A stretch of DNA of 64,000 nt from NCBI GenBank assembly GCA_002708715.1, contig PAPB01000028.1, positions 1 to 64,000 of the forward strand, given 5' to 3'. A model generated the notes under the pieces. That model did no database searches. It saw nothing but the letters and a program-made list of their open reading frames with translations, and had not been told where the DNA came from. This DNA comes from Fidelibacterota bacterium. Lineage in GTDB: Bacteria; Fidelibacterota; Marinisomatia; Marinisomatales; UBA1611. This document shows positions 5,576-29,774 of this stretch, one piece after another (positions within the stretch are counted from its first letter, which is position 1; the number at the start of each line of letters is the position of its first letter). Position numbers and translations under genes: made by a program.

Positions 5576-7213
5576 TTACTCTTCTACTCTTGTCAAATCA
5601 GCAAGATGGTATGATTTTTTACTCTTTGGTTTTATTGGGATTATTGCATCCATAAAACCATTACGTTTAACATTAACTTCACCTTCATAATTGATTGGCA
5701 TACCAACAATATGTAACTCCCCAACTATTTTTGCCACTGCGAATAATGATTCATCAACATAAAGTCTATATATGTCATCCTTGGTAGGAGTAAAAGGATC
5801 AAAATATATTACTACCTCTCTCCCCTTAATTAAATCTTGATCTGCAATGAATGTCTTTATTGATTTAGCTCCCTCATTTAAGTTAAGCGTATCACTATCT
5901 GCAAATAGATTTACATAGTGTTTCCCTGGAAATCGTTCTTGTGTGTTAGCATAACTATTCCTTAAATATTTTCCTAATGGCAAATCTAAAATTGTCACTG
6001 AATTATTTCCTTTATTAATTAAGTACTCATATGGCTCCGATTCAATCTGCAAATTATTATTATTTTTATTACCCCATATAACTAATGTATCAGATTCATC
6101 ATTTAATTTTAGAAGCTCAAAACCAACACCATTCCAAATATTCATAATAGATATATCACCAAATAATCTAGGAGGCGGACACCCATTTAAATCTGGATTG
6201 CTGTTTGCCTCACCAGGAATTTGAGGACAGGCATCATCATCATCAAAGATGCCATCTCCATCAGTATCTTTTGGTGGTGGAATATATGGCAATGATACAT
6301 GAATCTCATTTAAATCACCTGCTATAACTTTAAAATTGGTTTCAAAATATTTTTCATTATTTTTTAAGAAAGCTTGAAATTTATACTCACCAGCTAAAAA
6401 AGTTGTATTCTCATCATAATCACTTATTAGTCTGTAGTCATCCGAAGCATATTTTGATAGAATATCATTATGGGTTTCAAAAAAATTTGAAGGTATTGTA
6501 ATAGTGTGAAATGGAGCATAATCAGATTTCTTAGTATTTTCAAAATTAGTACCTACGACTGTTCGCAGTGGTCTAATTGATATATCATCCCATCTAATTC
6601 TATTTCTACTAGTTGAATCAACTCTAACATATACAGAACCAACAAACGGCATTATAATCTTTGCCATCAAGGGCTTAATAATATCATTAATCTGAGATCT
6701 AAGATTAGTAATTGATTCAAAATTTAAAGCAAACGATTCTGATGAAATTATTTTTTGAGTTGAAACATCAATAAGCTTTAGATCTATTTCATATTGTGAT
6801 GCTAATGTATTTATTTCTCCAATAAAAATAAAATCTGTACGCTTAGGATAATCGTAAGATTTAACAAGTTTAATAAAATTGTCTGTCTTAATTCGATTTT
6901 GAATTGATTCACCCGCTATATTTAAATGAGGATTTTTAGCTACTGCTGATGTCACCATTGCAGAAACAAGTTTAGGATCCAAAGCCTTTCCAAAGGCTAG
7001 ATTTTCACTTAAAGTTATATCCTTTTTATTAAAATTAGGAAATTGAATAAGTTTATTTTTACTCTCATCTTGCTCACCTCCATGTAAAAGTATAGATGTT
7101 GTATCATAGCTAACAAAATGATATATATATATCATAGGTGGATCAGAGACACTAAAAGCTTGTGCCATTATATTTGTCATTATAAATAATAGAATAATAA
7201 AGATGCTTTTCAT
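5576..7213 (-). CDS. Secreted TSP3-repeat protein with CsgG/FlgO-like N-terminal domain
   Basis: A 545-residue exported protein with a signal peptide (about residues 1-18, ending AQA). Residues about 50-200 look like a CsgG/TolB-N/FlgO-type fold: a conserved-looking strand (DFIFIGEINT) is followed by IDLKLIDVSTQKII, the typical 'ligand strand - LVD - tG' pattern. A calcium-binding thrombospondin type 3 repeat follows near residues 315-345 (DTDGDGIFDDDDACP, with two Cys and PDLNGCPP). The C-terminal 200 residues are beta-rich and unassigned. It is 28 bp behind a lipoprotein containing the same kind of CsgG-like repeats, so the two probably act together at the cell surface. It has an AAGGA ribosome site. 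Confidence 0.65.
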   Translation of the reverse strand: MKSIFIILLFIMTNIMAQAFSVSDPPMIYIYHFVSYDTTSILLHGGEQDESKNKLIQFPNFNKKDITLSENLAFGKALDPKLVSAMVTSAVAKNPHLNIAGESIQNRIKTDNFIKLVKSYDYPKRTDFIFIGEINTLASQYEIDLKLIDVSTQKIISSESFALNFESITNLRSQINDIIKPLMAKIIMPFVGSVYVRVDSTSRNRIRWDDISIRPLRTVVGTNFENTKKSDYAPFHTITIPSNFFETHNDILSKYASDDYRLISDYDENTTFLAGEYKFQAFLKNNEKYFETNFKVIAGDLNEIHVSLPYIPPPKDTDGDGIFDDDDACPQIPGEANSNPDLNGCPPPRLFGDISIMNIWNGVGFELLKLNDESDTLVIWGNKNNNNLQIESEPYEYLINKGNNSVTILDLPLGKYLRNSYANTQERFPGKHYVNLFADSDTLNLNEGAKSIKTFIADQDLIKGREVVIYFDPFTPTKDDIYRLYVDESLFAVAKIVGELHIVGMPINYEGEVNVKRNGFMDAIIPIKPKSKKSYHLADLTRVEE

Positions 7214-7241: not shown

Positions 7242-8828
7242 TTAGTTGATATTACTTAGCTCACTAACTTGGATTATGTCACCTGTATTTATATCAATTA
7301 GCCTGATACCTAAAGCGATATTTTTATAATCAGGGTGTGTAGGTGACAATTTCTCATAGGGAATTAAGTTATTATAGACTATCAACATATCAACTCCAAA
7401 CTCCTTTAGTTGGCCCCAGTCATCTAAATAAAGTGGATTCAAATTGAATACTTTTTCATCATACATCCATGGTCTTTTAAGATACAGTGTTTTCAATTTT
7501 TCATAAGTTGGAATCTTTCGTTCTACAAGAGCAGTCATCATACCCTCTTCAATAATTAAATTCATTTCATTAAAAGACGATTGGCTTTGAAAGTACTTTT
7601 CGGACTCCACAGCTTGTTTATCTCCATCTATAATTAGAACCTTTTTATTTTTTAATAATGAGATATCAACATTAGCTTTAAATTGACTAACAACGGCATC
7701 ATGATTTTCAATAATACCTTCGTCTATTCTCCCATTAAAAACAAAAGCATTAGAATAGATTATTCTACCATTATTTTTTACATCAATTATTTTCAGATAT
7801 AATCCATTATCTGGGATATGCCGATACATCATTAACATATTACAATTAGTTTCACTATAAAACTCAGACCACTCTTCATATAATAATGGACTTGTATTAA
7901 ACACGATATTTTCATAAACAGAAGGATATTTTAATTTGAAACCTTTAGTCTTTTCCATGATAATAGGATCATTATCTTTATATTTCTCATTGTGGATTAA
8001 ACCTGTAATAATAGCATTTTCAATACCCATTGTCCTTTTGGATGGTTGATTATTATAATTACCAGAAATATTTAAGATATCCGTATTCAATAGTCCCATC
8101 CTAACATTCTTTTGAAAAATCGCCCTAGGTAAATCTCCTATGTTTTTAACAATATCATAGGTCTCATTAAAAGAATTAATCTCACCTTCAGCTAGCCAAT
8201 CTATTTGGTCTCCTATCGTTATCATTGCTGAAGTCAATACTTTCATAGATTGTAAATCAATCATTCGTAAATAAACAACAACTGCAAGGTCACTATCTGA
8301 AAAATCTATGATTTGATATGTGAGAAGATTAGGTGCCCTGATTTCATTTTCGATTAAAGATAAATCATTTAAATTTAGCCCATGCATGTAAAAAGCATCT
8401 TCAGGAGCCGTTCCAACAAATTCAGAAGGATCTCGTGGACTTATGTGGTCTAACTTTTCCGCCACAGTTAAACCTTTACGAACCAAACCATCAATAAATC
8501 CATTCTCTAAAGCCATATCCCATTTATCAAGTTGGCCATAATTATTTCCAATAGGTAACTCATCGACTCTAGCTAAATACACCCTTGATTTCCACTTTCC
8601 ATCAGGTATATGACCTAAAAACTCATTAAAATTTGTATGGAGTGTGATTTTTCTACCAAGATCATGAATATCTATAAACTTTTGTGCTTGAATATTTTCT
8701 GTATCTTCAATATTCACAACCGAAGGAAATCCATCTTGTTCCTTTGCTACTTGTGGCGGTGTGCAACCTATAAAATAAAAAATTATTATACAGGTTATAA
8801 AAACAAATTTGCGTATAAAAAAGGTCAT
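7242..8828 (-). CDS. Lipoprotein with three CsgG/FlgO-like repeats
   Basis: A 528-residue protein with a lipobox (FYFIGC, Cys22). Three internal repeats are visible. The helical halves are at residues 103-126, 264-283 and 421-445, with shared patterns such as ENGFIDGLV, ENAIITGLI and EEGMMTALV. The strand halves are at 183-201, 341-361 and 504-523 (LRMIDL, LKIIDV, LRLIDI-like). This is the pattern of CsgG/FlgO/LpoB-type lipoprotein domains, which form periplasmic or outer-membrane assemblies. It overlaps the upstream regulator by 4 bp (ATGA) and has a good AAGGAG site, so it is probably co-transcribed with the regulator. The fold assignment is by pattern only. Confidence 0.65.
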   Translation of the reverse strand: MTFFIRKFVFITCIIIFYFIGCTPPQVAKEQDGFPSVVNIEDTENIQAQKFIDIHDLGRKITLHTNFNEFLGHIPDGKWKSRVYLARVDELPIGNNYGQLDKWDMALENGFIDGLVRKGLTVAEKLDHISPRDPSEFVGTAPEDAFYMHGLNLNDLSLIENEIRAPNLLTYQIIDFSDSDLAVVVYLRMIDLQSMKVLTSAMITIGDQIDWLAEGEINSFNETYDIVKNIGDLPRAIFQKNVRMGLLNTDILNISGNYNNQPSKRTMGIENAIITGLIHNEKYKDNDPIIMEKTKGFKLKYPSVYENIVFNTSPLLYEEWSEFYSETNCNMLMMYRHIPDNGLYLKIIDVKNNGRIIYSNAFVFNGRIDEGIIENHDAVVSQFKANVDISLLKNKKVLIIDGDKQAVESEKYFQSQSSFNEMNLIIEEGMMTALVERKIPTYEKLKTLYLKRPWMYDEKVFNLNPLYLDDWGQLKEFGVDMLIVYNNLIPYEKLSPTHPDYKNIALGIRLIDINTGDIIQVSELSNIN

Positions 8829-11434
8829 AGAGACTCCTTAATATTAAAATCTATTATATTTTTATAAGGGATTGAATACTTTTCTTTCATCTTTGTTGTG
8901 TAATTTTCACTAAAATCATTGTAAATCTTAAAAGACATAGCCTCTTTCTTATTCATCTTATTGGCAAAGACTACATAACGCATACCAAAATCATCAAATT
9001 CATTCCAATAAAGCATTTGGTTTCCAATCCATTCTAATTTGTCCCAATTTTTGTTCAGAATAAGTACTTCCCCATATTCTTTAGCATAACGATTAATCTT
9101 ATTGTAAAGCTCTAAACGAAAAGATTTAACCCAATTTAAATTCATATTCGGCAGTAAACCATCTTTTCCATATATCATTATAGGGTCATCTAATGATTTA
9201 CTTTCTATTGTAAATGGACGTTCTAATATTTTAATCATATTCCTAAAATCTATAAAAAGTTCTTTGTCATTGATAAATTTAATTTTTTCATTATCACTTA
9301 TTAATAAATATTCATATGGTGCTATAATTTTACGAATACGACTTATTGCAACAGCCCTACTATTTCTAGCACTTTCTAAGTTTACATTTGGCCAAAATAA
9401 ATCATGGATTTTATTAATTGAGACTCCATTTATTCCATTTATTACAATATAAATAAATAATTCTCTGGCTTTAGCAGATTTCCATTCTTTAGAATCTAGT
9501 AGATTCCCATTTTTCCATATTTTAAAACCATTTAATAAAGATATTGTAATACCTTTATCTAGTATATATTGAGAAATATCTATATGTTGCGTTTTCTTAT
9601 TATTTATCAAATCAATAGGATGTGGAGATTCTTCCACATAATTTTGATTTTTATTAAAGAAAAATCCACAAACAGCTAACAATATTATTGCGATGATAAT
9701 AAATCGAGCATAATTCTTTTCGTAATTAGTTAATCTAATTATGGGGAGATGTATGGTGTAAAATTCTAAATAATCTTTATCTTCTTTTTTATTTAAAACG
9801 ACTATTAATAACTCATCTCTAAAGTCCAAACTTTCAAAGTGAACTATATTTACATTATTCATTTCATTTATATTTGAAGATAGCTGAACATCAAAATATT
9901 CAAAATTTCGCGATTCAAATGAAGAAACAGCCATTTTAGTGGTATTATTAACATAAAGATTTAGATTCTCATTATCCCTGTTATCACTTAAAATTTTAAA
10001 AATAGTTTTATGTTTAGAAGACAGTGCAATTTTTTGAAAATTTGATTTATAATCTTCAACAATTTGAGTGCTATCTATCCATAGTTGATTAAACTCTAAA
10101 TTATTAATATCAATAAGCCATAAATCATTGAGTCTTCTAAATCCTTGCTGTTGCTTACCACTTTCATTGCCTTGACCACCATATAAGTAATAATTACCAG
10201 TTTCTTGATCAAATACTAAACTTGACTTACATCTAGGAAAAAAGTTTTCACCATTTTTAATTTTATATTTTGTTTTATCCCACTTAAAACTTTGATCATT
10301 ATATTTTTGTAAAATGTTTTTTTGCTCATACCATCCATAGCCACCAAGTGAATATGTATCTCCATTTTGATAGTTGTGCAGAATATTACTTGTATAATAC
10401 AGACCATCTGATTCAAAATTATCCATAAAATTATCCCAAGAATTAGTTTTTTTATTGTAGGATGATATTCGGCTGCCTCCACCACCATGCATTGCAAACA
10501 CTTTTTTTGTTATGGGATTATAATGATACAAATAATTATCATTGGGTAAATAGGAGAATGGAAATACTTCTGATATTTCTTTTTTATTTATATCATAATG
10601 ATATAATGAATCACCTAATAGGTAAATAACATAATTATTTTCAATATCATTACCTATAAATTTAAACTTATTTTTATAAATCCTTTGGGTGTGAATTTTA
10701 TTCCAACGAGTGTGTAATTCCTTAATCCACGTCCCATTCGTAACACTTCCATCCCAAGAATTACCATTATCATAATTAGAATGTACAATTGCTCCGTTAT
10801 TTTCATCTAATGGCCATGAAATAGTTTCATTATTATCACGATTAAATATTATTTTTTTTATCGCCATTCGTGGAGGCTCAACAACAAACGAAGTTCCTCC
10901 AAAATGAAATTGCATTTTATTAGGTATTGGTGTTTTTTCTTTATACCATATAATATTTTGATCATCAAATGAAAGACCAATTCTTTGATTTTCTATTTCA
11001 AAATATAAGACTACTTTTTTCCATTTTCTCCAGCCTTGATCTTTATCCAATACTGGAATTGAAATAATTGAAGGCCGATCCTTATAAGTAAGTTCTATAT
11101 AGCTTGTGTCTTTACTTTTATAATCTGAATATGATAAAACAAATACATGGGGGTCAGTATCATTACCAGCACTAACAATAAAGCCAAATGGATTTTTTTT
11201 CCATAAAAATATGTCAAATTCTAACCTAATATTATTTTTAAAAGAAATAACATTATCTGAAGGAATCTTTAATGACGTTACTTCCTTATATTCTTTTGAA
11301 ACATCATATATTGAATTAAATAATAATCCATCAATATGATCTGCATCAGCAAAGCAAATTATAAACAATAAAAAGTGTGAAATCTTAAAATAATAACTCA
11401 AAATATTAAATACAATTAAAAAGTAAATTTGCAC
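8825..11434 (-). CDS. Membrane-bound Kelch-sensor/SARP-type transcription regulator
   Basis: An 869-residue one-component regulator with a GTG start. A signal or anchor segment (residues 15-30) precedes a LamG/concanavalin-like region (about 60-245) and Kelch-like beta-propeller blades (about 255-560, e.g. GGYGWYE and LYGGQGN). A single TM helix follows (577-594). The cytoplasmic part holds a winged-helix DNA-binding domain (about 628-730, with AKARELFIYIV and the SRAVAISRIRKII recognition region) as in SARP/OmpR-type regulators, then a BTAD-like helical domain (738-869). The topology suggests an extracytoplasmic signal is passed directly to DNA, as in ToxR/CadC. The two CsgG-like genes downstream are the obvious candidate targets. 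Confidence 0.8.
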   Translation of the reverse strand: MQIYFLIVFNILSYYFKISHFLLFIICFADADHIDGLLFNSIYDVSKEYKEVTSLKIPSDNVISFKNNIRLEFDIFLWKKNPFGFIVSAGNDTDPHVFVLSYSDYKSKDTSYIELTYKDRPSIISIPVLDKDQGWRKWKKVVLYFEIENQRIGLSFDDQNIIWYKEKTPIPNKMQFHFGGTSFVVEPPRMAIKKIIFNRDNNETISWPLDENNGAIVHSNYDNGNSWDGSVTNGTWIKELHTRWNKIHTQRIYKNKFKFIGNDIENNYVIYLLGDSLYHYDINKKEISEVFPFSYLPNDNYLYHYNPITKKVFAMHGGGGSRISSYNKKTNSWDNFMDNFESDGLYYTSNILHNYQNGDTYSLGGYGWYEQKNILQKYNDQSFKWDKTKYKIKNGENFFPRCKSSLVFDQETGNYYLYGGQGNESGKQQQGFRRLNDLWLIDINNLEFNQLWIDSTQIVEDYKSNFQKIALSSKHKTIFKILSDNRDNENLNLYVNNTTKMAVSSFESRNFEYFDVQLSSNINEMNNVNIVHFESLDFRDELLIVVLNKKEDKDYLEFYTIHLPIIRLTNYEKNYARFIIIAIILLAVCGFFFNKNQNYVEESPHPIDLINNKKTQHIDISQYILDKGITISLLNGFKIWKNGNLLDSKEWKSAKARELFIYIVINGINGVSINKIHDLFWPNVNLESARNSRAVAISRIRKIIAPYEYLLISDNEKIKFINDKELFIDFRNMIKILERPFTIESKSLDDPIMIYGKDGLLPNMNLNWVKSFRLELYNKINRYAKEYGEVLILNKNWDKLEWIGNQMLYWNEFDDFGMRYVVFANKMNKKEAMSFKIYNDFSENYTTKMKEKYSIPYKNIIDFNIKESL

Positions 11435-19127: not shown

Positions 19128-20948
19128 GTGCTATGGGTAGCCCCTGTCATCTATTTTAACTTTTCATATCCAGAGACTGAATGGGACTGGGATAGAATTG
19201 ACACACAAGACATCCACTTTCCTAAATCATTTGCATGGGGAACCGCGACTGCGGCCCATCAGGTTGAGGGAAACAATACAAACAACAATTGGTATCAATG
19301 GGAGAATGAAGTAGATGAAGACAACCTTCCACGGATTCATAATGGAGACAAATCATCCATAGCCGCTGATCATTGGAAAAGGTACCCTGATGATATCAAA
19401 CTAATGAATGAATTAGGTGTTAACCACTATCGATTTTCTATTGAATGGTCGAGGATTGAGCCTGAAAGAGGAGTCTTTAACCTAGATGCCATTAACCACT
19501 ATCGAGACCTATGTGACTCTCTTCTGAAAAATAACATTACCCCAGTAGTTACCCTCCACCACTTTACTCATCCTATATGGTTTGAAGAACTTGGCGCATT
19601 TGAAAAACAAGAAAATATAAAATATTTTATAAAATACTCTGAATATGCATTTAATAATCTCCAAGACCTAGTTCCTATCTGGTGTACCATCAATGAGCCA
19701 TCCGTATTTGTCTCTCAGGGGTATTTTAACGGGATATTTCCTCCAGGAAAAAAAGATCCAGTATTGGCTGCTACAGTTCTGGAGAATCTTCTCAATGCGC
19801 ATACAAAAGTCTATAAACATCTAAAAGAATTGAAAGGAGGAAGCAAAGCCCAGATTGGTCTTGTGAAAAATATATTTCAATTTGATCCACTCAGAAGGTG
19901 GCACATTCTTGACTGGATATTTAGCAATGTTTTAAATAATGTTTTTACTAATTCATCTATAGACTTTCTCAAGACAGGTCATTCTACTTTTTCCCTGCCA
20001 GGGATGGTACATAAAGAAATGATAAATCCTGATGCGGTAGGAGCACTTGATTTTATTGGACTCAACTATTACTCAAGGATGCATGTGATAGGCCAAGCCA
20101 GTCTTGCAGAACCTTTTTTATTTGAAAAACGTGAAAAAGATATCCAAACGGATATGGACTACGCTTTATACCCTGAAGGATTTTATAAAGCGCTCCACAC
20201 AATAAGTACCCTTGAAAAGCCTATATATGTTACTGAAAATGGTGTTGCAGATCATGGAGATAGTATTCGGACACTATTTATCAAACGCTACCTCTATGCA
20301 CTAAATATGGCACTCAAAGATAGGCTCGATATCAGAGGATATTTCTACTGGACCCTGATGGATAATTTTGAATGGGCAGAAGGCTATAAAATGAAATTTG
20401 GCCTCTACGAAGTAGACTTCAATACCCAAAAACGTACTCTCAGAAAGAGCAGTAAACCATTTATTGATATGGTTAAAAAAAGAGGCGCTGATGAGCGTGG
20501 ATATATAGTAGGCATAGGTGACGATGCTCCAGATTTCACCATGGAATATACAACAGGTGAAAGAGTCACTCTATCACAGTTAAAAGGCCAGGTAGTGGTT
20601 CTACAATTCACCGCTAGCTGGTGTTCGGTGTGTAGAAAAGAGATGCCACACCTTGAGAAAGATGTCTGGCAAGCATTCAAAGATAAAGGAGTCAAACTAA
20701 TTGGGATAGATAGGGATGAACCTCTGGAGACAGTAATTAAGTTTCAAAAAGATATGGGTACTACATACCCTCTTGCTCTTGATCCTGGAGCTAATATTTT
20801 TGGATTATTTGCTGATAAAAACTCTGGAGTTACCAGGAATATTGTTATTGATCAACAAGGGAAAATTGTTTTTCTAACCAGATTATTTGATCATAATGAA
20901 TTTAATAAAATGATAGAGGTAATTGATAATTTGGTTAACTCAATTTGA
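19128..20948 (+). CDS. GH1 beta-glycosidase fused to TlpA/thioredoxin-like domain
   Basis: A 606-residue protein counted from GTG at 19128. Residues 30-446 are glycoside hydrolase family 1: FAWGTATAAHQVEG, acid/base Glu190 in TINEP, DFIGLNYYSR, nucleophile Glu370 in YVTENG, and the WTLMDNFEWAEGY aglycone segment. Residues 460-606 are a thioredoxin/AhpC-TSA-like domain with WCSVC (498-502) and GVTRNIVID where TlpA proteins usually have the cis-Pro loop. Both halves look intact. The frame is open upstream to 19065 and encodes a basic-hydrophobic stretch, so translation probably starts at CTG 19083 (AAGGG at 19071-19075), giving a signal anchor. It would then be an envelope beta-glycosidase with a thiol-redox module. 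It probably shares a transcript with the upstream cystathionine beta-synthase-like gene and overlaps the converging LPP20 gene by 9 bp. Confidence 0.88.
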   Translation: MLWVAPVIYFNFSYPETEWDWDRIDTQDIHFPKSFAWGTATAAHQVEGNNTNNNWYQWENEVDEDNLPRIHNGDKSSIAADHWKRYPDDIKLMNELGVNHYRFSIEWSRIEPERGVFNLDAINHYRDLCDSLLKNNITPVVTLHHFTHPIWFEELGAFEKQENIKYFIKYSEYAFNNLQDLVPIWCTINEPSVFVSQGYFNGIFPPGKKDPVLAATVLENLLNAHTKVYKHLKELKGGSKAQIGLVKNIFQFDPLRRWHILDWIFSNVLNNVFTNSSIDFLKTGHSTFSLPGMVHKEMINPDAVGALDFIGLNYYSRMHVIGQASLAEPFLFEKREKDIQTDMDYALYPEGFYKALHTISTLEKPIYVTENGVADHGDSIRTLFIKRYLYALNMALKDRLDIRGYFYWTLMDNFEWAEGYKMKFGLYEVDFNTQKRTLRKSSKPFIDMVKKRGADERGYIVGIGDDAPDFTMEYTTGERVTLSQLKGQVVVLQFTASWCSVCRKEMPHLEKDVWQAFKDKGVKLIGIDRDEPLETVIKFQKDMGTTYPLALDPGANIFGLFADKNSGVTRNIVIDQQGKIVFLTRLFDHNEFNKMIEVIDNLVNSI

Positions 20949-21491
20949 TGATGAGGTATCCATATTCTCAAATTCACGATCCATCGCATCAAATGCATTT
21001 CTTGCCTTAAATTCATTGTAAAGAGCCGTTTCTCTTTTAGCTGCGTCTCTAGTTGCTTTCTTTGCTTCTTGCGCTGCAGCACTCGCATCGTAGGTTACCA
21101 TCACATAAGTAGTACCATTCATTACATCAGTTCTATCAACAACAATTCCTTTCAACACATTCTGAGAGGTTGTTTTTGTAACTGTCTCTGTATATTCAAG
21201 AGCCTCTGCATCTTCTCCTATACCAGACTCTGACATAAAGTCTTTTACTGTCTGTGTAACTTTAGACTCTACTTGTGAAGAAATCTCTGCCATCGCTCTA
21301 TTGGTAGCTACTTTTTTTGCAAGACTGAGACTTTGCTTTTTAGCTTCTCCCACGCCTACAAAACGATCTTCAAATTTTGGTGGATTAAGGTACCAGTCAG
21401 GCATATCTTTTTTTGAAACAGGTTTTGTACCTGAACAACCTGCCATAAAGATGAGTATAACAGGAAATAAAATATTTTGATATTTAAACAT
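20940..21491 (-). CDS. LPP20-family lipoprotein
   Basis: A 183-residue lipoprotein (FMAGC, Cys19). The sequence PDWYLNPP, then FVGVGEA and an alanine-rich helix with RAMAEIS, matches the LPP20/FlgP family of outer-membrane lipoproteins. The C-terminal third is a charged helix. It is the last gene of the caspase/lipoprotein run but is separated by 133 bp and has its own AAGGA ribosome site, so it may also have its own promoter. Its 3' end overlaps the converging GH1 fusion by 9 bp. Confidence 0.85.
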   Translation of the reverse strand: MFKYQNILFPVILIFMAGCSGTKPVSKKDMPDWYLNPPKFEDRFVGVGEAKKQSLSLAKKVATNRAMAEISSQVESKVTQTVKDFMSESGIGEDAEALEYTETVTKTTSQNVLKGIVVDRTDVMNGTTYVMVTYDASAAAQEAKKATRDAAKRETALYNEFKARNAFDAMDREFENMDTSSSN

Positions 21492-21624
21492 GAGTCATCC
21501 TTTTAGTCTATTTTATTTTTTAAAAATTGAAAAAATTTTAATACTTCTAATAACTATATTACAATTTAGGATTGGAATAAACAATTATTCGAAGAATTAA
21601 TTTTCAAATTACTATATTTATAAA

Positions 21625-22638
21625 TTACTTTGATATATGGTACATGTTCAGTGATTCAATCCGCTCATCCATGGGTATACTATTTAACCATCTCTGTAAG
21701 GACAAAAAATTATTATCATCCTTAGAAAATGGTATTATTTCTTCACCAATACGTGGAATCTGTTCAGGAAGCGGAATATCTTTTTTAGTACAAATGACAT
21801 ATACGCTCTCTGAAGTTATTGGACGTCCTGGGAGTGATCCCACAATAAATGATATATATTGTTTTATAGATGGATCAGGTATTATCAGTGTCTCCCTAGC
21901 TTGAATTTTATTATCAGTCATATAATCATTAGGAAACATTAATATTGAATTATTGTCAGCCATTAGATTAAATATATATACATAAGAATCTTTTGTTGGA
22001 GTAACAAATATTTCAAGTTCATCACCCTCATTGAGCATATTTTTTTTTAATTTTGCATCAACTAAATATTCCACATCACGCTTTCCCGTTACTGGCTCTA
22101 CATAAAAATCATAATGCAAAAAGTATTGATAGACTTCATCGTTTTTAGTGTCAATTTTTGAATCAATTTCCTTTTCATTGGTTATTATTCCCGATACAGT
22201 ACTTTTAAAAAATCCAGACCATGCAGTTTTCGAAAATTCCTCATTTCCCACTTCACTTATTACATCGCTCATTAGTTGAGTTATTTCTACTGTTGTACCA
22301 ACTTTTTTACTGATTGCATCATTCCTCATTTCTGTAATTAGATCCATCTTAGCATCTTTAAAAGAAGTATTTGAATTAAAATATTTATCTTTTTTTATAG
22401 AGATCCACCCTAGCGTACCAGTATTATATCTTTCCTTTGATTGTTTATCAATATCCTCTATTAAATACTTCGAAGTACCCAAATTATTTTCAATACCGAA
22501 ACTACTTTCCGAATTCTCGAATTCTTTAAATGCTTTTTCAGCCTTGATTTTGTTTTTATCTGGTTTTGGTGCGACCATTTTATTGGTACAACCAAAGTAG
22601 AACAAAACACAAAAAAATAAAATGTTCTTATTCAACAT
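21625..22638 (-). CDS. DUF4384-domain lipoprotein
   Basis: A 337-residue lipoprotein (FYFGC, Cys16). Residues about 60-185 form an LPP20-like helical/strand domain. Residues about 195-290 match DUF4384: NEGDELEIFVTPTKDSYVYIF, LMFPNDYMTDNKI and ETLIIPDP (read as short motifs). DUF4384 is often found with caspase-like proteases and pathway lipoproteins in other bacteria. Here the caspase-like gene lies three genes upstream in the same strand run. The exact role is unknown. Confidence 0.8.
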   Translation of the reverse strand: MLNKNILFFCVLFYFGCTNKMVAPKPDKNKIKAEKAFKEFENSESSFGIENNLGTSKYLIEDIDKQSKERYNTGTLGWISIKKDKYFNSNTSFKDAKMDLITEMRNDAISKKVGTTVEITQLMSDVISEVGNEEFSKTAWSGFFKSTVSGIITNEKEIDSKIDTKNDEVYQYFLHYDFYVEPVTGKRDVEYLVDAKLKKNMLNEGDELEIFVTPTKDSYVYIFNLMADNNSILMFPNDYMTDNKIQARETLIIPDPSIKQYISFIVGSLPGRPITSESVYVICTKKDIPLPEQIPRIGEEIIPFSKDDNNFLSLQRWLNSIPMDERIESLNMYHISK

Positions 22639-22683
22639 GGAAAAACATCCAACCTAATATGATAAATTCATAAAAAGAAACTA

Positions 22684-23988
22684 TTAGTATATTGTAAAAG
22701 GTTCAGACACATACTCATCCTGCAGGTTATATCCAATAATTACCATTGTATAACAGTTCGATGGTACGATCTCACTTGATTGGGCAGGAAGCGTAAAATC
22801 ATAAGAACCGTCAGAATTAAATACAAGCCAAGACCCAAAATCATATACCGTATTCCCATTTAATCGTAAAACAGCTCCCCCTTGCTGACCAACTGAATAT
22901 AAACTAGAGTATAAACCCGCTGTATATGTATCACCGAAATTATAAATGTTTTGTTCTGGGTTTACGTAAGTGAATGTTGTCCCCGTAGTACTATGCGGTA
23001 TATTACAATTATCATTTGGAGGATCACCACCCTGACTAGAAGTTATTGAGAAATAGCTATTGCTGTAGTCTTGAATATCTGAGTCAGATGTAGAATATAT
23101 GCGAACTCTGTAATCATCTCCTAGTGTTAGGGTTGATGGAATATTCCAAGAAAAAACACCATCATTGGCACTGGAACTAGAAATGGAATTCACGTAACTA
23201 TCCCCTGAGTATAATTGAATACCAATATAGCCAGATACATTAGTGCTGCTCCAGGTAATATCCTGTGTAGAACCAAGAACCCAAGACTCACCACCATCAG
23301 GAGAACTAACTGTGATAGAATTTACACTACTAGAACTTATTGAAAAATACTCACTAAAATCCCCAAGGCTTAAGTCATTTAGAGAATACACAGCAACTTG
23401 ATAATTATCTCCAGACGGAATATCAATTGGGATATTCCAAGAATAAGAGCCATCATTTGCACTAGAATTGGAAATCCTGTTATAATAAATGTCATCTTTA
23501 TACAACTCAATTCCGATATTGCCAGATACATTAGTACTACCCCATGAAATATTATGCGTAGAGCCAGCTACCCAAGAATCACCAAATGTCGGAGAATTAA
23601 CATTTATCTCACCATCACCACCAAAATATTGCTTTATATATATATCTAATTCAATTTTTTTAAAATTTCCTACCAAATCAGTAACAATCACCTCAATTCT
23701 GTGTTCACCAATAGTCTGCATGGAAAAATTGGCCGACCATGGTTCTTCTGTCATTTTTAATGAAACTAGTGAGGAATCACTTTGATATACAATAACATCA
23801 ATATCTTTAATTTGATCATTATCACTGGCACTAAGAATCAACGTAAATACTTGACCAATTTCTTCATTATTAGTGGGTGAAAGTATCTCAACCTCTGGAG
23901 GAAATATATCTAGAATCTCAGGGCACCCTGAAAAAAATAGAGTAGATGTAAATAATACATAGAATGGATATTTTTTAAAAATTTGCAT
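22684..23988 (-). CDS. Lipoprotein with Ig-like and two KNH-type repeats
   Basis: A 434-residue lipoprotein (FFSGC, Cys22). An Ig-like domain (about residues 30-118) is followed by two tandem repeats of about 95 residues (about 124-220 and 222-318). Each has 'SP..G.SWv.GSThnIsW.StNVSG', 'SSANDG.(Y/F)SWNIP' and an ending FSI, as in Kre9/KNH-type surface domains. A C-terminal beta-sandwich (about 325-434) is unassigned. It is probably a surface-exposed structural or adhesive lipoprotein. It lies between the DUF4384 lipoprotein (45 bp) and a related larger repeat lipoprotein (40 bp). Confidence 0.75.
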   Translation of the reverse strand: MQIFKKYPFYVLFTSTLFFSGCPEILDIFPPEVEILSPTNNEEIGQVFTLILSASDNDQIKDIDVIVYQSDSSLVSLKMTEEPWSANFSMQTIGEHRIEVIVTDLVGNFKKIELDIYIKQYFGGDGEINVNSPTFGDSWVAGSTHNISWGSTNVSGNIGIELYKDDIYYNRISNSSANDGSYSWNIPIDIPSGDNYQVAVYSLNDLSLGDFSEYFSISSSSVNSITVSSPDGGESWVLGSTQDITWSSTNVSGYIGIQLYSGDSYVNSISSSSANDGVFSWNIPSTLTLGDDYRVRIYSTSDSDIQDYSNSYFSITSSQGGDPPNDNCNIPHSTTGTTFTYVNPEQNIYNFGDTYTAGLYSSLYSVGQQGGAVLRLNGNTVYDFGSWLVFNSDGSYDFTLPAQSSEIVPSNCYTMVIIGYNLQDEYVSEPFTIY

Positions 23989-24028
23989 TAGATAAAGCTA
24001 AACTTATTATAGTCTTATTACTGACTCC

Positions 24029-25774
24029 CTATGGAAATGAAATATTATCAACCCGTAGATACCGTGACGACCCGGAATACCACCAATACCATTGAAAACT
24101 GTAGGTACCTGCGTCAACGGGCACTTCAACCAATTGCCATTCTTCACTATAAGGATTCATATGTTCAGCCATATCTTGATCATCAATGAGAAATCTAAAG
24201 TAATAATCACTATCTGTTTTAGCAAAAAATCTTAGCACACCAGAGTTGACTGTAACAGTTTTTGAAAGGGACCCTTCACCATCCCACACAGCAGATTTAG
24301 CACCACCATATGCATCCAAACTATCAACAGTGCAATTAACACCAAAATTCCAATCTACTAAACTTTCTCCTGTTTCAAATCCCATATCATAATCAAATAT
24401 TACTGTGTCTGCAATTGTAAAAGTAGCGTCAGACTCATCGAACCAGTCATCCCTAGTCACACTTTGAATTCTAATTTTACAAACATCATTTGTACCTTGG
24501 ACAGACGGAACGTCCCATTGAAAGTAACCATCATTATCTATATCACCCCATGTTGGATTTTCTATTTCATACCAACTATCACCACCAAAAAGAGAGTAAA
24601 GGATCTTAACATCATTTGCATCCCCTCCTGATTCCCATAAAATCATGCGTTTGGTTCCTTTTTGAAAAGTCTCACCTCCATTTGGTTGTATAATCCGATA
24701 AAAATTTGAATCTGTTTCCATAGTGAAATAAGCATCACTAATTTTGTAAACATCTGTATTTGCTACACTCCATATGCCAATTACCCCTACAAACGAAGTA
24801 TCAATATAGTTTGGAACAGTCCAACTATAAATACCATCGTTATCTGTCTGGTCCCAATTATAATAAGGTGGATTAGTAGTGTTGTTTGAAGTTCCAACAA
24901 CATCGGTCCAATTAGCTCCTCCATCATGCGAGTAACCAATATAGACTTCATTACCCCCAATGTCACCCTCGGTATTCCATAATATATCAAATTCCGTCAG
25001 CTCATGCCACTCTTCACCTCCGTTTGGCTCAAGTATGTTAATTATATTACTTTGGCTATTACCTGCACTAATTGTAAAAGGTTGATCAGATTCATCAATA
25101 TAATCGTAAAAACCTACTGATTGCCAGATTCTTATTTTTACAAAAGGGTTATCCACATAGACCTCTGGAATTTCCCATGAATAGATGGAATCACTATATA
25201 CATATGAATATATTGTCGTATAAGAATTTCCATTATCTAGGCTGTATTGTACTGCTAGATTATCATATTCATCTGCAGGATGCCCGCTTTTCTTAAATCT
25301 TATATTTTGGGTAGATAATTCATCCCATATTTCCCCCCCATTTGGACTAATAATCTGGAGATAGGAACTATCTGCTATAATAGAAAAAAAACCAGAGGAG
25401 TCTTCTTGCTCTACATCATAACTATCACTATTATATGTTCTTAAATATATTTTACAGGAATCTAAATCTCCTCGTCTACCCCGAATACTTGGGAGATTCC
25501 AAGAATAATTAGACTCATCTGTCCCATAACTACTATTTAATTGGTATGGTGTATTATTTTCCGCATCAAAATCACTGCAAAAATAAAAAATATGCACATC
25601 CTCATTAATGTTTTCCCATCTAATTTGAATACTTTCTCTTTCGTTAAAAGCCTCACCTCCCACTGGAAATAATAATTCAAGTTCTGTATTAAATAATACA
25701 TCACACGAATTTACATGTAGCGTAATTACAAGCAGCATGAAAAGATATAATGAATTGTTGCGTTTAAATTTCAT
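24029..25774 (-). CDS. Lipoprotein with four KNH-type repeats and C-terminal jelly-roll domain
   Basis: A 581-residue protein with a signal sequence and probable lipobox (HVNSC, Cys24). Four repeats of about 100 residues each start with a 'P(N/V)GGE' turn (PVGGEAF, PNGGEIW, PNGGEEW, PNGGETF) and end with 'ESD..FTI'. Each has a central 'YSWxxP' motif. The final 110 residues look like a carbohydrate-binding-module-type jelly roll (DMGFETG... LRVDNISF). It is related to the neighbouring 434-residue lipoprotein by domain type. It is probably surface-exposed and lies 11 bp after the caspase-like gene. Confidence 0.75.
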   Translation of the reverse strand: MKFKRNNSLYLFMLLVITLHVNSCDVLFNTELELLFPVGGEAFNERESIQIRWENINEDVHIFYFCSDFDAENNTPYQLNSSYGTDESNYSWNLPSIRGRRGDLDSCKIYLRTYNSDSYDVEQEDSSGFFSIIADSSYLQIISPNGGEIWDELSTQNIRFKKSGHPADEYDNLAVQYSLDNGNSYTTIYSYVYSDSIYSWEIPEVYVDNPFVKIRIWQSVGFYDYIDESDQPFTISAGNSQSNIINILEPNGGEEWHELTEFDILWNTEGDIGGNEVYIGYSHDGGANWTDVVGTSNNTTNPPYYNWDQTDNDGIYSWTVPNYIDTSFVGVIGIWSVANTDVYKISDAYFTMETDSNFYRIIQPNGGETFQKGTKRMILWESGGDANDVKILYSLFGGDSWYEIENPTWGDIDNDGYFQWDVPSVQGTNDVCKIRIQSVTRDDWFDESDATFTIADTVIFDYDMGFETGESLVDWNFGVNCTVDSLDAYGGAKSAVWDGEGSLSKTVTVNSGVLRFFAKTDSDYYFRFLIDDQDMAEHMNPYSEEWQLVEVPVDAGTYSFQWYWWYSGSSRYLRVDNISFP

Positions 25775-25785
25775 ATAACCCCTAT

Positions 25786-28479
25786 TTAATATTTTAAAAT
25801 GACTCCAGCTTTATCCCCAGAGAACGTAGGATTTTGCTCCCTGGTAAAATTACTTAGTTCATTTACCTTAGACGATACTTTATCAGAAAGATACACCTCC
25901 ATCTCACCATTGGTAATCTTTTTATCTTGATTTTGATCGGCCTGTCCTTGAAGACCTGCAAGTACATAATAGGTAAAGACCCCATGTCTTGCCTTTGGAT
26001 ACCAGGAGCTTACCTGGTCATTTCTTGATGAAGAGAAAACATTCAATCCTGACATGGATGGGGCCTTAACCTTGAGCAGTGCAGGGCTAATTTTTTTGTA
26101 CAGCATTCCACTCTCTGATTTACCGCTAAAACATGCATCCATAACCAGCGTAACCTGATTTGATTTTACAGGTAGACTACCAAGATTTTCGATAAGTACT
26201 TCCAAGGGGTATCCCTCAAACTCTATATTACCCATACTCGCTCCTGCTGGTACAATGTATGCCTCATTTGTATTGAGATCTGGCGCACCATGACCTGAAT
26301 AGAAAACATATACTTTTGCATTGTCACCGATTCGTTTTACCTGTTTAAATAACTGACCTTCTTTATTTTCTCGGGTTCCAAATATGCGATTAAAGTCTGA
26401 TAGTTTCGCATCGGTAAGTTCAATAATATTACTAGTTGGGATTCCAATAGTTTTGGTAAGATAAGATTTAAAAACTCTACTGTCTCTGTCAGCGTAGTCT
26501 ACTTGGGGAATATCTCGATTTTCATAATTTCTGTTTCCAATAACAACCGCAAAACCATTTTTTAATTTATTATTAGTATTAGGAGCGATATCTACATTTA
26601 TCCACTCGTCATCAGAAGTAACATTTGTGCCAAAGCCCGAAGAAGAGGAAACACCCATGGCAACTTGGGTTGCTGCGGCTTTATATATCTCTAATGGTAT
26701 TGTCTGTCTTATACCAGAAAAATTTGCCATACCCAACAAAACTTTTAGATCAAAAGGACCAACATCAGCGTTCCACCTTACATCAATGGGTATCATCTGT
26801 TTGCGAGCAATCTGTCGTGCTGGTATTTTCCCTATAGTTAATTCCTGCATACCACTGTATCTTGATAAAGATTTAATTTCAATTCCATTATGTTTAGCAT
26901 CAAGATTAAGAGTAACATCTTCCGCATCAAGATCACCATCATTCCTTGCTAAAATTTCTAGTTCTATTTTTTCTCCTTGTTCTATTAAACCATTTTGATT
27001 GCCACGAGACCCTGCTGTTGTCCCATCATGAATAACATAATCAAATGAGAGCTTAGGAGTCCTGTATGCACAATCAACTGTAATTGGTTTTACAAAGTTT
27101 ATTATTTTTCTCTCATCTGTTATAGTTACAGAAAATTTAAATGATTCTTTTTTGTAGGTAACTGGTACCCTAAACCCAATTGGAATAGATTTCATAGCCG
27201 ATGGGCCAATTGCACCTATAAATTCACTACCATTAATAGGTAGTACTCCTAATCCTGCAACTGTCACATCTGTACTAACTCCATATGCTGGACCTTCACC
27301 AATATTTTTCAATTCAAATAAGATTTCAACAGATTCTCCGTTCTCGATTAGGTTATTACCATTACCATCTGCCAAACCAATATTCCCATCATTAATTGAC
27401 CAATTTGTTATTTCCAATTTAGGCGGAAGAAATTTTTTGGTTGGAATAAGAGAAGAAATAGGTCTGGCGTCATTCCCTTTGATATCAGAAACATAAAAAA
27501 CTAATTCCTCATTTTGATTTATAGTGTTCTTTTTACCTTTCAGTAAAAATGTAAAATTTTCTCTTCTACCTGGTAAAATATCACCTAACGATGTAATATT
27601 ATCTAAAATTGCAATAGTTTTTGGTGTTTTAGTAAGTTCAACCTTTACACCTCTACCAACTCCATCTCCTTGATTTTCAACATCCCCTGTAATACGAGCC
27701 GATTCATAAGCATCAAGGCTTCCATTTCCATCATCATCAATAAAGTCATTTATTACTAAATTTAAGCTTGGAGGATCAAGACTTTCTTGAAGTCTGTAAT
27801 TAAAACTTTCAGTATTTGAATTAATGCCTCCATTAAACGATAGATTTTTTGCGTCATAGATTCCAGGAATAGTTAGATAGAAAACTAATTCCATGCTCTC
27901 TTTTGGTCCTAAACTATATGAACCTTTGAGGGACCTTTTCCCTCCCTTAGTTTTTTTATTATCTATTTTTAATTCAGGCTCCACTCCTCTTGATGCAATA
28001 CTCTTAAGCTCTAGTATAGGTTTGATATTTTTTATCTTTTTATTTGATATATTTTCTATAGACATCACCATCTTACCCATTTCACCAGCAAAAATCTTAG
28101 AGCTTAATTGATCGGATCCCATTGGATAATACATAATATACACATCTATTTTATCTAGATTATTATCGAATAATTTTACGATTCTATGTTTTACAAAATT
28201 TTTATATACAAATCTACTAAGACCCAATAATGCCACGTCTCTGCCTAAAACAACATAGCCGGTTTCCATAATCTTATATGAAACGTATCCTGTTAGGCCT
28301 AGATAAGGTATCTCTAGAAGACTTATCCCCTTTTTATTCTCATTTTGGTAATCTCTATTTGCCCTAATTATTTTCTTTACTGGACTATTATTTTTAAAAT
28401 TAGAATCGCCAAGCAAAATTAATGGGCATAGAAGATTCAAACATAAAATGATAATGGTATAATTTTTAATAGCGCGCAT
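25786..28479 (-). CDS. Secreted caspase-like (C14) protease with CARDB/Ig-like repeats
   Basis: An 897-residue protein from ATG at 28479 (a GTG lies one codon upstream). A signal peptide (about residues 8-25) is followed by a variable region and three Ig/CARDB-like repeats with a shared 'GNG..IE.GE.iel...N.G.g.A..v' pattern (about 235-600). The C-terminal caspase domain (about 640-897) has the catalytic His in YSGHG (His730) and Cys in DACFSG (Cys783). An EF-hand-like loop, DQNQDKKITNGE, follows as in many bacterial caspases. The dyad appears complete, so it should be active outside the cytoplasm. It lies upstream of three lipoprotein genes. Whether it acts in processing, regulated lysis or another pathway is not shown by the sequence. 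Confidence 0.9.
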   Translation of the reverse strand: MRAIKNYTIIILCLNLLCPLILLGDSNFKNNSPVKKIIRANRDYQNENKKGISLLEIPYLGLTGYVSYKIMETGYVVLGRDVALLGLSRFVYKNFVKHRIVKLFDNNLDKIDVYIMYYPMGSDQLSSKIFAGEMGKMVMSIENISNKKIKNIKPILELKSIASRGVEPELKIDNKKTKGGKRSLKGSYSLGPKESMELVFYLTIPGIYDAKNLSFNGGINSNTESFNYRLQESLDPPSLNLVINDFIDDDGNGSLDAYESARITGDVENQGDGVGRGVKVELTKTPKTIAILDNITSLGDILPGRRENFTFLLKGKKNTINQNEELVFYVSDIKGNDARPISSLIPTKKFLPPKLEITNWSINDGNIGLADGNGNNLIENGESVEILFELKNIGEGPAYGVSTDVTVAGLGVLPINGSEFIGAIGPSAMKSIPIGFRVPVTYKKESFKFSVTITDERKIINFVKPITVDCAYRTPKLSFDYVIHDGTTAGSRGNQNGLIEQGEKIELEILARNDGDLDAEDVTLNLDAKHNGIEIKSLSRYSGMQELTIGKIPARQIARKQMIPIDVRWNADVGPFDLKVLLGMANFSGIRQTIPLEIYKAAATQVAMGVSSSSGFGTNVTSDDEWINVDIAPNTNNKLKNGFAVVIGNRNYENRDIPQVDYADRDSRVFKSYLTKTIGIPTSNIIELTDAKLSDFNRIFGTRENKEGQLFKQVKRIGDNAKVYVFYSGHGAPDLNTNEAYIVPAGASMGNIEFEGYPLEVLIENLGSLPVKSNQVTLVMDACFSGKSESGMLYKKISPALLKVKAPSMSGLNVFSSSRNDQVSSWYPKARHGVFTYYVLAGLQGQADQNQDKKITNGEMEVYLSDKVSSKVNELSNFTREQNPTFSGDKAGVILKY

Positions 28480-28526
28480 CACAAATATTAAAAAATATTC
28501 ATCATAATAAAAAAAAATAAAATTAA

Positions 28527-29774
28527 TTACGGTAACAGTGAATCATAGTAGTCATCAACACTGTCGTAATCCATTTTCCCAACAAAATTAGAAAATACAA
28601 AATAGCTAACTAAATAATTCATATCAGTCACCCAATTAGGTAAAAACTTTGGTTTCTGTAAAAATCCATCTTCTCTCATCCGAAGAAGTATAGGTATATC
28701 ATCAAGATCAACCTTGCCAGAAAATAACACCTCAATCGCATCTTTATTTCCTCTTAAAATAGCTGATCTAAAAAAATTATGAACCCTTACCAAACCATCC
28801 AAATACACAATATCCTTTGTAAAAGGAGCTCCTCCGCTTAATACCCCTCCTCTAAACACCCTTCTCGCATCCTCAAAGGCCTGAGTCTTCTTACCAGCCC
28901 TTTTTAAGAAAAAACGATATACCTCAATAAAATCTGCACCATCTATAGCCATTTGGATTGCTATAACTCTATCTGAGATTCTATACATTCGATTTACATC
29001 AATACAGCCCGTTATAAATTCAGAAAATACTGCAAGACCCTCTTGAGTTTTAGTGATTGAACCATATTTAGCACCAAGAATTTTTAAATCTTTTTGAAGG
29101 CGTCCATTTAAAGTGGTTGCAACATGAGTAAATGCCTCATGATTTACCAATTGCTCCACATCCTTACTTGTAAAGGTTGCACCTTTCCTTAATCGGATTC
29201 TTTTTGAACTGGCAGTGGCCTTAGCTGATAAATTGTCTTTGATCAGCACCTCTGGACTTTGGGATCCAAACACAGGAGTTATTCTTGATTCAATTTCTTT
29301 TTTAACATCAGCAATAGTAATAGTCTTACTACGTAATGACTTAGAGAAACGTTCAAAATACGAATCAATTAATGATTCAAATTGTCTTGCAAGATCAATC
29401 GTGGATGTTTTACCATCTCTTAAAAAACCGCTTGGAGAACCATATATTTTTTCAGAATTTTGAAAGAACTCTTTTGTTCCACAGGAATTTAATAGGTCAA
29501 CGCTTGACCTAATATCATTTGCTTTGGATCGTAACCAGTGATCATATGGAGTATCACCAAATACACTTTCAATACTTGTTAATTTATTTAGTATATCTCC
29601 TGAGTCAAATTTTAAATATTCTACTTTAGGAAGCTTTTCAGACTTGGTTCTAAAAAATTTAAAACGAACATTGTCTGGCCATACTAAATGACGAAGAATT
29701 TTGACTCGCCTACTTATTTCATAAAGACTAGAGGATATCTGCTTTATTCTTATTGAATCTTTTTTACTGATCAT
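28527..29774 (-). CDS. DUF1704 (MATCAP-like) QEGLA-motif metallopeptidase
   Basis: A 415-residue protein of the DUF1704 family, called 'flavohemoglobin expression-modulating QEGLA motif protein' in many genomes and related to the MATCAP tyrosine carboxypeptidases. The zinc motif HEAFTH is at residues 212-217 and TQEGLAVFSE supplies the third ligand (QEGLA at 244-248). No signal peptide is seen, so it is probably cytosolic. It is 10 bp after rimO and 44 bp before the caspase-like gene. The bacterial substrate is unknown. Confidence 0.88.
   Translation of the reverse strand: MISKKDSIRIKQISSSLYEISRRVKILRHLVWPDNVRFKFFRTKSEKLPKVEYLKFDSGDILNKLTSIESVFGDTPYDHWLRSKANDIRSSVDLLNSCGTKEFFQNSEKIYGSPSGFLRDGKTSTIDLARQFESLIDSYFERFSKSLRSKTITIADVKKEIESRITPVFGSQSPEVLIKDNLSAKATASSKRIRLRKGATFTSKDVEQLVNHEAFTHVATTLNGRLQKDLKILGAKYGSITKTQEGLAVFSEFITGCIDVNRMYRISDRVIAIQMAIDGADFIEVYRFFLKRAGKKTQAFEDARRVFRGGVLSGGAPFTKDIVYLDGLVRVHNFFRSAILRGNKDAIEVLFSGKVDLDDIPILLRMREDGFLQKPKFLPNWVTDMNYLVSYFVFSNFVGKMDYDSVDDYYDSLLP

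Follow-up and report, generated by a model that had tools for sequence, protein, structure and literature searches.

The window analyzed here, a stretch of 64,000 nucleotides from a Fidelibacterota bacterium, carries a minus-strand open reading frame (ORF) that coincides exactly with the interval 7242-8828 and encodes a 528-amino-acid protein with a signal peptide and a lipobox-like cysteine, C22. We refer to this protein, which contains three tandem repeats (R1 to R3), as the triple; the gene downstream of it is its conserved partner, and a gene for a Kelch-containing membrane protein lies upstream (Table 1). In E. coli, the Lol rule holds that the residue at position +2 relative to the lipobox cysteine (Asp versus any other) bears on outer-membrane sorting. 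Among members of the family with an intact start, the residue after the lipobox-like cysteine is T, S, N, A, I, or V and never D; the motif was scored by eye in these members, and its -3/-2 residues are atypical in some. With a lipobox cysteine, as judged by eye, and no Asp at +2, the triple has the features of an outer-membrane lipoprotein and is presumably exported, lipidated, and held at that membrane. The protein is named by no Pfam, NCBIfam, or PADLOC model (one NCBIfam line, at an E value of 0.05, falls far under the cutoff), and it matches no known defense system. Its relatives are Candidatus Marinimicrobia/Neomarinimicrobiota records, phylum Fidelibacterota, and none occurred on the plasmids and viral contigs searched. 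A promoter scan was uninformative (60 found versus 53 expected).

Table 1. Positions in the window of the triple, its repeats, and the adjoining genes
Feature	Position	Strand	Description
Triple CsgG/LpoB-like lipoprotein	7242..8828	-	528 aa; lipobox-like FIGC at residues 19-22, +2 Thr
Repeat 1 (R1)	8141..8591	-	Residues about 80-229, b-a-b-loop-a-b-b-b-a; AlphaFold2 and profile homology to R2 and R3
Repeat 2 (R2)	7665..8108	-	Residues about 241-388; AlphaFold2 and profile homology
Repeat 3 (R3)	7248..7646	-	Residues about 395-527, without the last helix; AlphaFold2 and profile homology
Most conserved loop of R3	7410..7511	-	Residues 440-473, EKLKTLYLKRPWMYxxKxFNLNPLYL; 22/34 invariant in 10 orthologs
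Conserved partner	5576..7213	-	28 nt downstream of the triple; signal peptide, CsgG/FlgO-like N-domain, TSP3-type linker, beta-rich C-part
Kelch-containing membrane protein	8825..11434	-	4-nt overlap with the triple in the window; outside the conserved unit

A preliminary description of this DNA had read three repeats in the protein, and the repeats proved real, with mutual homology above shuffled controls in both single-sequence and profile comparisons. In Smith-Waterman alignments of single sequences, for which 300 shuffles per repeat pair served as the null (mean, about 29 to 32; standard deviation, 5; maximum, 51), the two pairs involving R1 exceeded all shuffles narrowly, with scores of 53 and 52, and R2/R3 did so clearly, with a score of 91. 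This signal grew from single sequences to profiles of six and then of ten orthologs. With the 10-ortholog profiles, hhalign gave E values of 6e-8 for R1/R2, 3.9e-8 for R1/R3, and 1.1e-12 for R2/R3, and the corresponding scores of 51.6, 51.9, and 77.3 compare with maxima of 19.9, 20.5, and 22.9 over 100 column shuffles per pair. R2 and R3 are the closest pair of the three. The order R1-R2-R3 is kept in orthologs of three families, and therefore either the triplication predates the split of these families or the gene passed from one family to another.

The repeat boundaries proposed earlier (residues 103 to 201, 264 to 361, and 421 to 523) fit the cores modeled by AlphaFold2, which run from helix a1 (residues 100 to 117) to strand b5 (196 to 205) in R1, from 264-278 to 355-363 in R2, and from 421-436 to 517-521 in R3. 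However, they omit the modeled first strands (82 to 87, 243 to 248, and 397 to 401, respectively) and the last helices of R1 (211 to 228) and R2 (372 to 386), a helix that R3 does not have. In each repeat, conservation is highest in the loop after strand 2. The loop in R2 that is equivalent to the R3 loop of Table 1 (residues 288 to 322) has 16 of 35 positions invariant across 10 orthologs, and the one in R1 (residues 119 to 160) has 11 of 42 invariant and the highest mean conservation within that repeat. This pattern suggests that the loops may form a single contact surface that is used three times.

The AlphaFold2 model, built from six sequences, has a mean pLDDT of 67 and a pTM of 0.71, and much of the conserved loops lies under a pLDDT of 50. 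It places a helix at residues 40 to 63 and gives each repeat the topology b-a-b-(a)-b-b-b, to which R1 and R2 add a final helix. A Foldseek search of the PDB with this model returned at the top LpoB (its C-terminal domain; E value, 1.4e-3; probability, 1.00), GNA1162 (1.9e-3; 1.00), and LpoB again, and lower down PelC (probability, 0.84), CsgG (up to 0.75), and FlgT (0.30), as well as DUF330, TolB, and low-probability unrelated long chains. The entries whose probability exceeds 0.5 all share one fold type, and no match in the search reaches an E value of 1e-3. Thus, at moderate model confidence, all three repeats show a CsgG/LpoB/TolB-N-like topology, in line with the preliminary description, and the domains of the triple likely adopt this fold, of which the triple is a real variant.

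Membership in the Pfam CsgG family itself did not hold up as the fold did. None of the 10 orthologs exceeded the gathering score of Pfam CsgG (PF03783; best E value, 0.1), and sequence evidence for CsgG is weak. Against a CsgG profile built from proteins of the same order that were found by Pfam CsgG, the pooled repeats gave an E value of 2e-5 and a score of 35.9, compared with a maximum of 17.5 in 300 shuffles. One column-shuffle control had reached 131, which did not recur in the 300 shuffles with gap-poor columns. Separately, R1 and R3 exceeded their nulls (27 against 17 and 20), whereas R2 scored 19.3 against 17.5 with six sequences but 15 against 19.6 with ten. The part aligned to CsgG is mainly the final beta hairpin (RMIDLQSMKVL / KIIDVKNNGRII / RLIDINTGDII). 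Sequence searches reached no solved structure of the CsgG/LpoB/TolB-N fold; the solved structures that they did match (glucosamine deaminase and ATP synthase alpha) are chance matches.

The partner contributes a fourth CsgG-like domain to the pair. Its N-terminal CsgG/FlgO-like domain (residues about 20 to 195) scored 50 against the CsgG profile, compared with a null of 20 and with 8 to 14 for the remaining segments, and FlgO and LpoB matches under the cutoff were found in partner orthologs. A beta-rich C terminus appears only in a poor AlphaFold2 model (pLDDT, 39). Between these parts lies a spacer that carries the TSP3-type calcium motif DxDGDG in the window's family and is proline rich at the same position in two distant families, where the proline runs are long in the f30 genomes and shorter in G244 (L133 to L136).

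Next, we scanned 245 genomes of the phylum with profiles of the repeats and of the partner. Matches with E values near 1e-3 in ORFs of about 510 amino acids were, where read (L137 to L139), ATP synthase alpha rather than relatives, and we therefore required an E value below 1e-20. Three tandem copies in one ORF occurred in 10 of the 245 genomes, 6 in the window's family (G000, G001, G002, G004, G006, and G016) and 4 in two other families (G222, G232, G233, and G244). A full-length partner was found in exactly the same 10, always adjacent to the triple, and the overlap between the two genes is 4 nt at each of the four distant loci. In G000, G001, G004, G006, and G016, the pair is flanked by rmuC and a small lipoprotein gene on one side and by a convergent UvrD/PD-(D/E)XK gene, confirmed by Pfam, on the other. 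The same flanks with nothing between them were found in G012, G014, G017, G018, and G020, and G014 belongs to the same genus as G004, which has the module. Because near relatives have the empty site, the triple and its partner behave as a two-gene cassette that is gained or lost as a unit. In G014 (L153), the small lipoprotein and UvrD genes stand tail to tail with an overlap of a few bases where G004 (L161) carries the module. A neighbor of the module in G233 (L134, 3570-5027, minus strand) encodes a protein in which a CsgG domain at the N terminus precedes WD40 repeats.

Domains of this type had been described beforehand as usually single, which does not apply locally, since two CsgG matches were found in each of at least seven ORFs of the order. 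Two-copy CsgG/LpoB chains are thus common in this order (L031, L053, and five more ORFs), and in the two that we checked, L053 and L031, both LpoB/CsgG domains were over the cutoff and were fused to a DUF5683-type C terminus. Like the triple, these proteins have several domain copies per chain, but they differ in having two copies, full Pfam matches, and the DUF5683-type C-terminal part, and no partner gene was observed alongside them. Given two-copy versions in the same order, adding a third copy is a modest step.

Among known systems, GNA1162 (4hrv) is, like the triple, a lipoprotein with the same domain fold, but it has a single domain. CsgG and PelC are likewise outer-membrane lipoproteins of this fold whose oligomers consist of single-domain chains, in contrast to the three domains per chain of the triple, and no curli or Pel genes were recognized among the conserved neighbors of the module. 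The nearest functional precedents are the PelC ring, a lipid-anchored 12-mer on PelB (PMC12141448), and LpoB. We infer that the triple forms a physical complex with its partner and that together they serve as a two-component periplasmic scaffold or adaptor anchored at the outer membrane, in which the triple is a covalently preassembled run of domains; this is our tentative preference, at somewhat under an even chance. The triple would be exported, lipidated, and anchored at the inner face of the outer membrane, and its three domains would join in one chain the subunits or docking domains that are separate in PelC, CsgG, GNA1162, and LpoB. Its three conserved loops may then act as the repeated contact surface, with the partner docking via its own CsgG-like domain while the TSP3 or polyproline spacer carries a beta-rich C-terminal part outward. 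The earlier suggestion that a linear triple could be a built-in assembly unit is plausible. Where other systems keep this domain in separate subunits, its repeats are fused here, which offers a natural test of how lipoproteins of the CsgG/PelC/LpoB type assemble, since contacts between domains within the chain should reveal which faces are subunit contacts.

Rather than forming a scaffold, three or four triple chains could close an outer-membrane ring of 9 or 12 domains, with the partner as gate or cargo. The fold relatives do form rings, PelC as the 12-mer described above and CsgG as a 9-mer, according to the title of PMC7304575. Three domains divide both 9 and 12, an arithmetic that does not count as evidence. 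However, no extra amphipathic hairpins are visible in the AlphaFold2 monomer model, and an exporter gene conserved beside the module was not found. We consider a ring or channel subunit unlikely and regard as rather improbable its specific form, a closed ring of triple chains that the partner's fourth CsgG-like domain caps or gates. If true, such a ring would constitute a new envelope assembly, encoded by two genes, with ring subunits of the PelC/CsgG type covalently fused in threes.

A quite unlikely reading is that the triple works as LpoB does, one or more of its domains docking on a class A penicillin-binding protein and activating cell wall synthesis. LpoB (PF13036), the activator of PBP1B, is a lipoprotein with a TolB-N-like alpha/beta fold (PMC7267771) and is the top structural match. 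LpoB nevertheless has one domain and a disordered N-terminal stretch and needs UB2H, whereas the triple has three domains, and UB2H was over the cutoff in none of the 10 module genomes, compared with 3 of the 14 control genomes. The weak UB2H matches lay mostly in ORFs of about 1030 to 1057 amino acids that are probably Mfd. Furthermore, presence in 10 of 245 genomes is too patchy for a core cell wall regulator.

The upstream gene raises a further reading, in which the triple is a periplasmic ligand or stress sensor that feeds the Kelch-containing membrane protein. The triple had been noted to follow a Kelch/SARP regulator directly; the order and a 4-nt ATGA overlap are as described, and the same order recurs in G001. 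In contrast, the SARP part was not confirmed: a Pfam search of the gene product returned Kelch matches alone (Kelch_4 just under the cutoff) and no SARP/BTAD match. Nor is the neighborhood conserved: in G004, G006, G016, and the four distant genomes the module has no Kelch gene next to it, and G013, a genome without the module, has Kelch relatives. We therefore judge a sensor role very unlikely. G013 (C33, C9, and C3; L101, L105, and L106) holds three of these relatives, one with a stop, and in G011 a Kelch relative adjoins rmuC at a contig end. A part in a flagellar H ring, as with FlgO or FlgT, is scarcely credible: FlgT (3w1e) is, like the triple, a multidomain envelope protein and the partner has subthreshold FlgO matches, but the FlgT match is weak, and FliF was over the cutoff in G244 alone, which refutes the role for the other nine module genomes within the limits of their incomplete assemblies.

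Returning to the scaffold formed by the triple and its partner, the two-gene unit is a concrete, unannotated envelope module in an uncultured marine phylum (Fidelibacterota/Marinimicrobia). To judge from the sources searched, a partner-coupled triple that is invisible to Pfam and kept in three families has not been described before, and our literature search returned no paper joining Marinimicrobia and CsgG. Elsewhere in the window, genes for an LPP20 lipoprotein, a DUF4384 lipoprotein, two Ig-like lipoproteins, and a secreted CARDB-caspase (EACC1-type) protein are clustered at 20940-28482. The interval 28527-29774 has a strong match to the MATCAP tyrosine carboxypeptidase family (PF08014; E value, 1e-114), whose name comes from a microtubule function.
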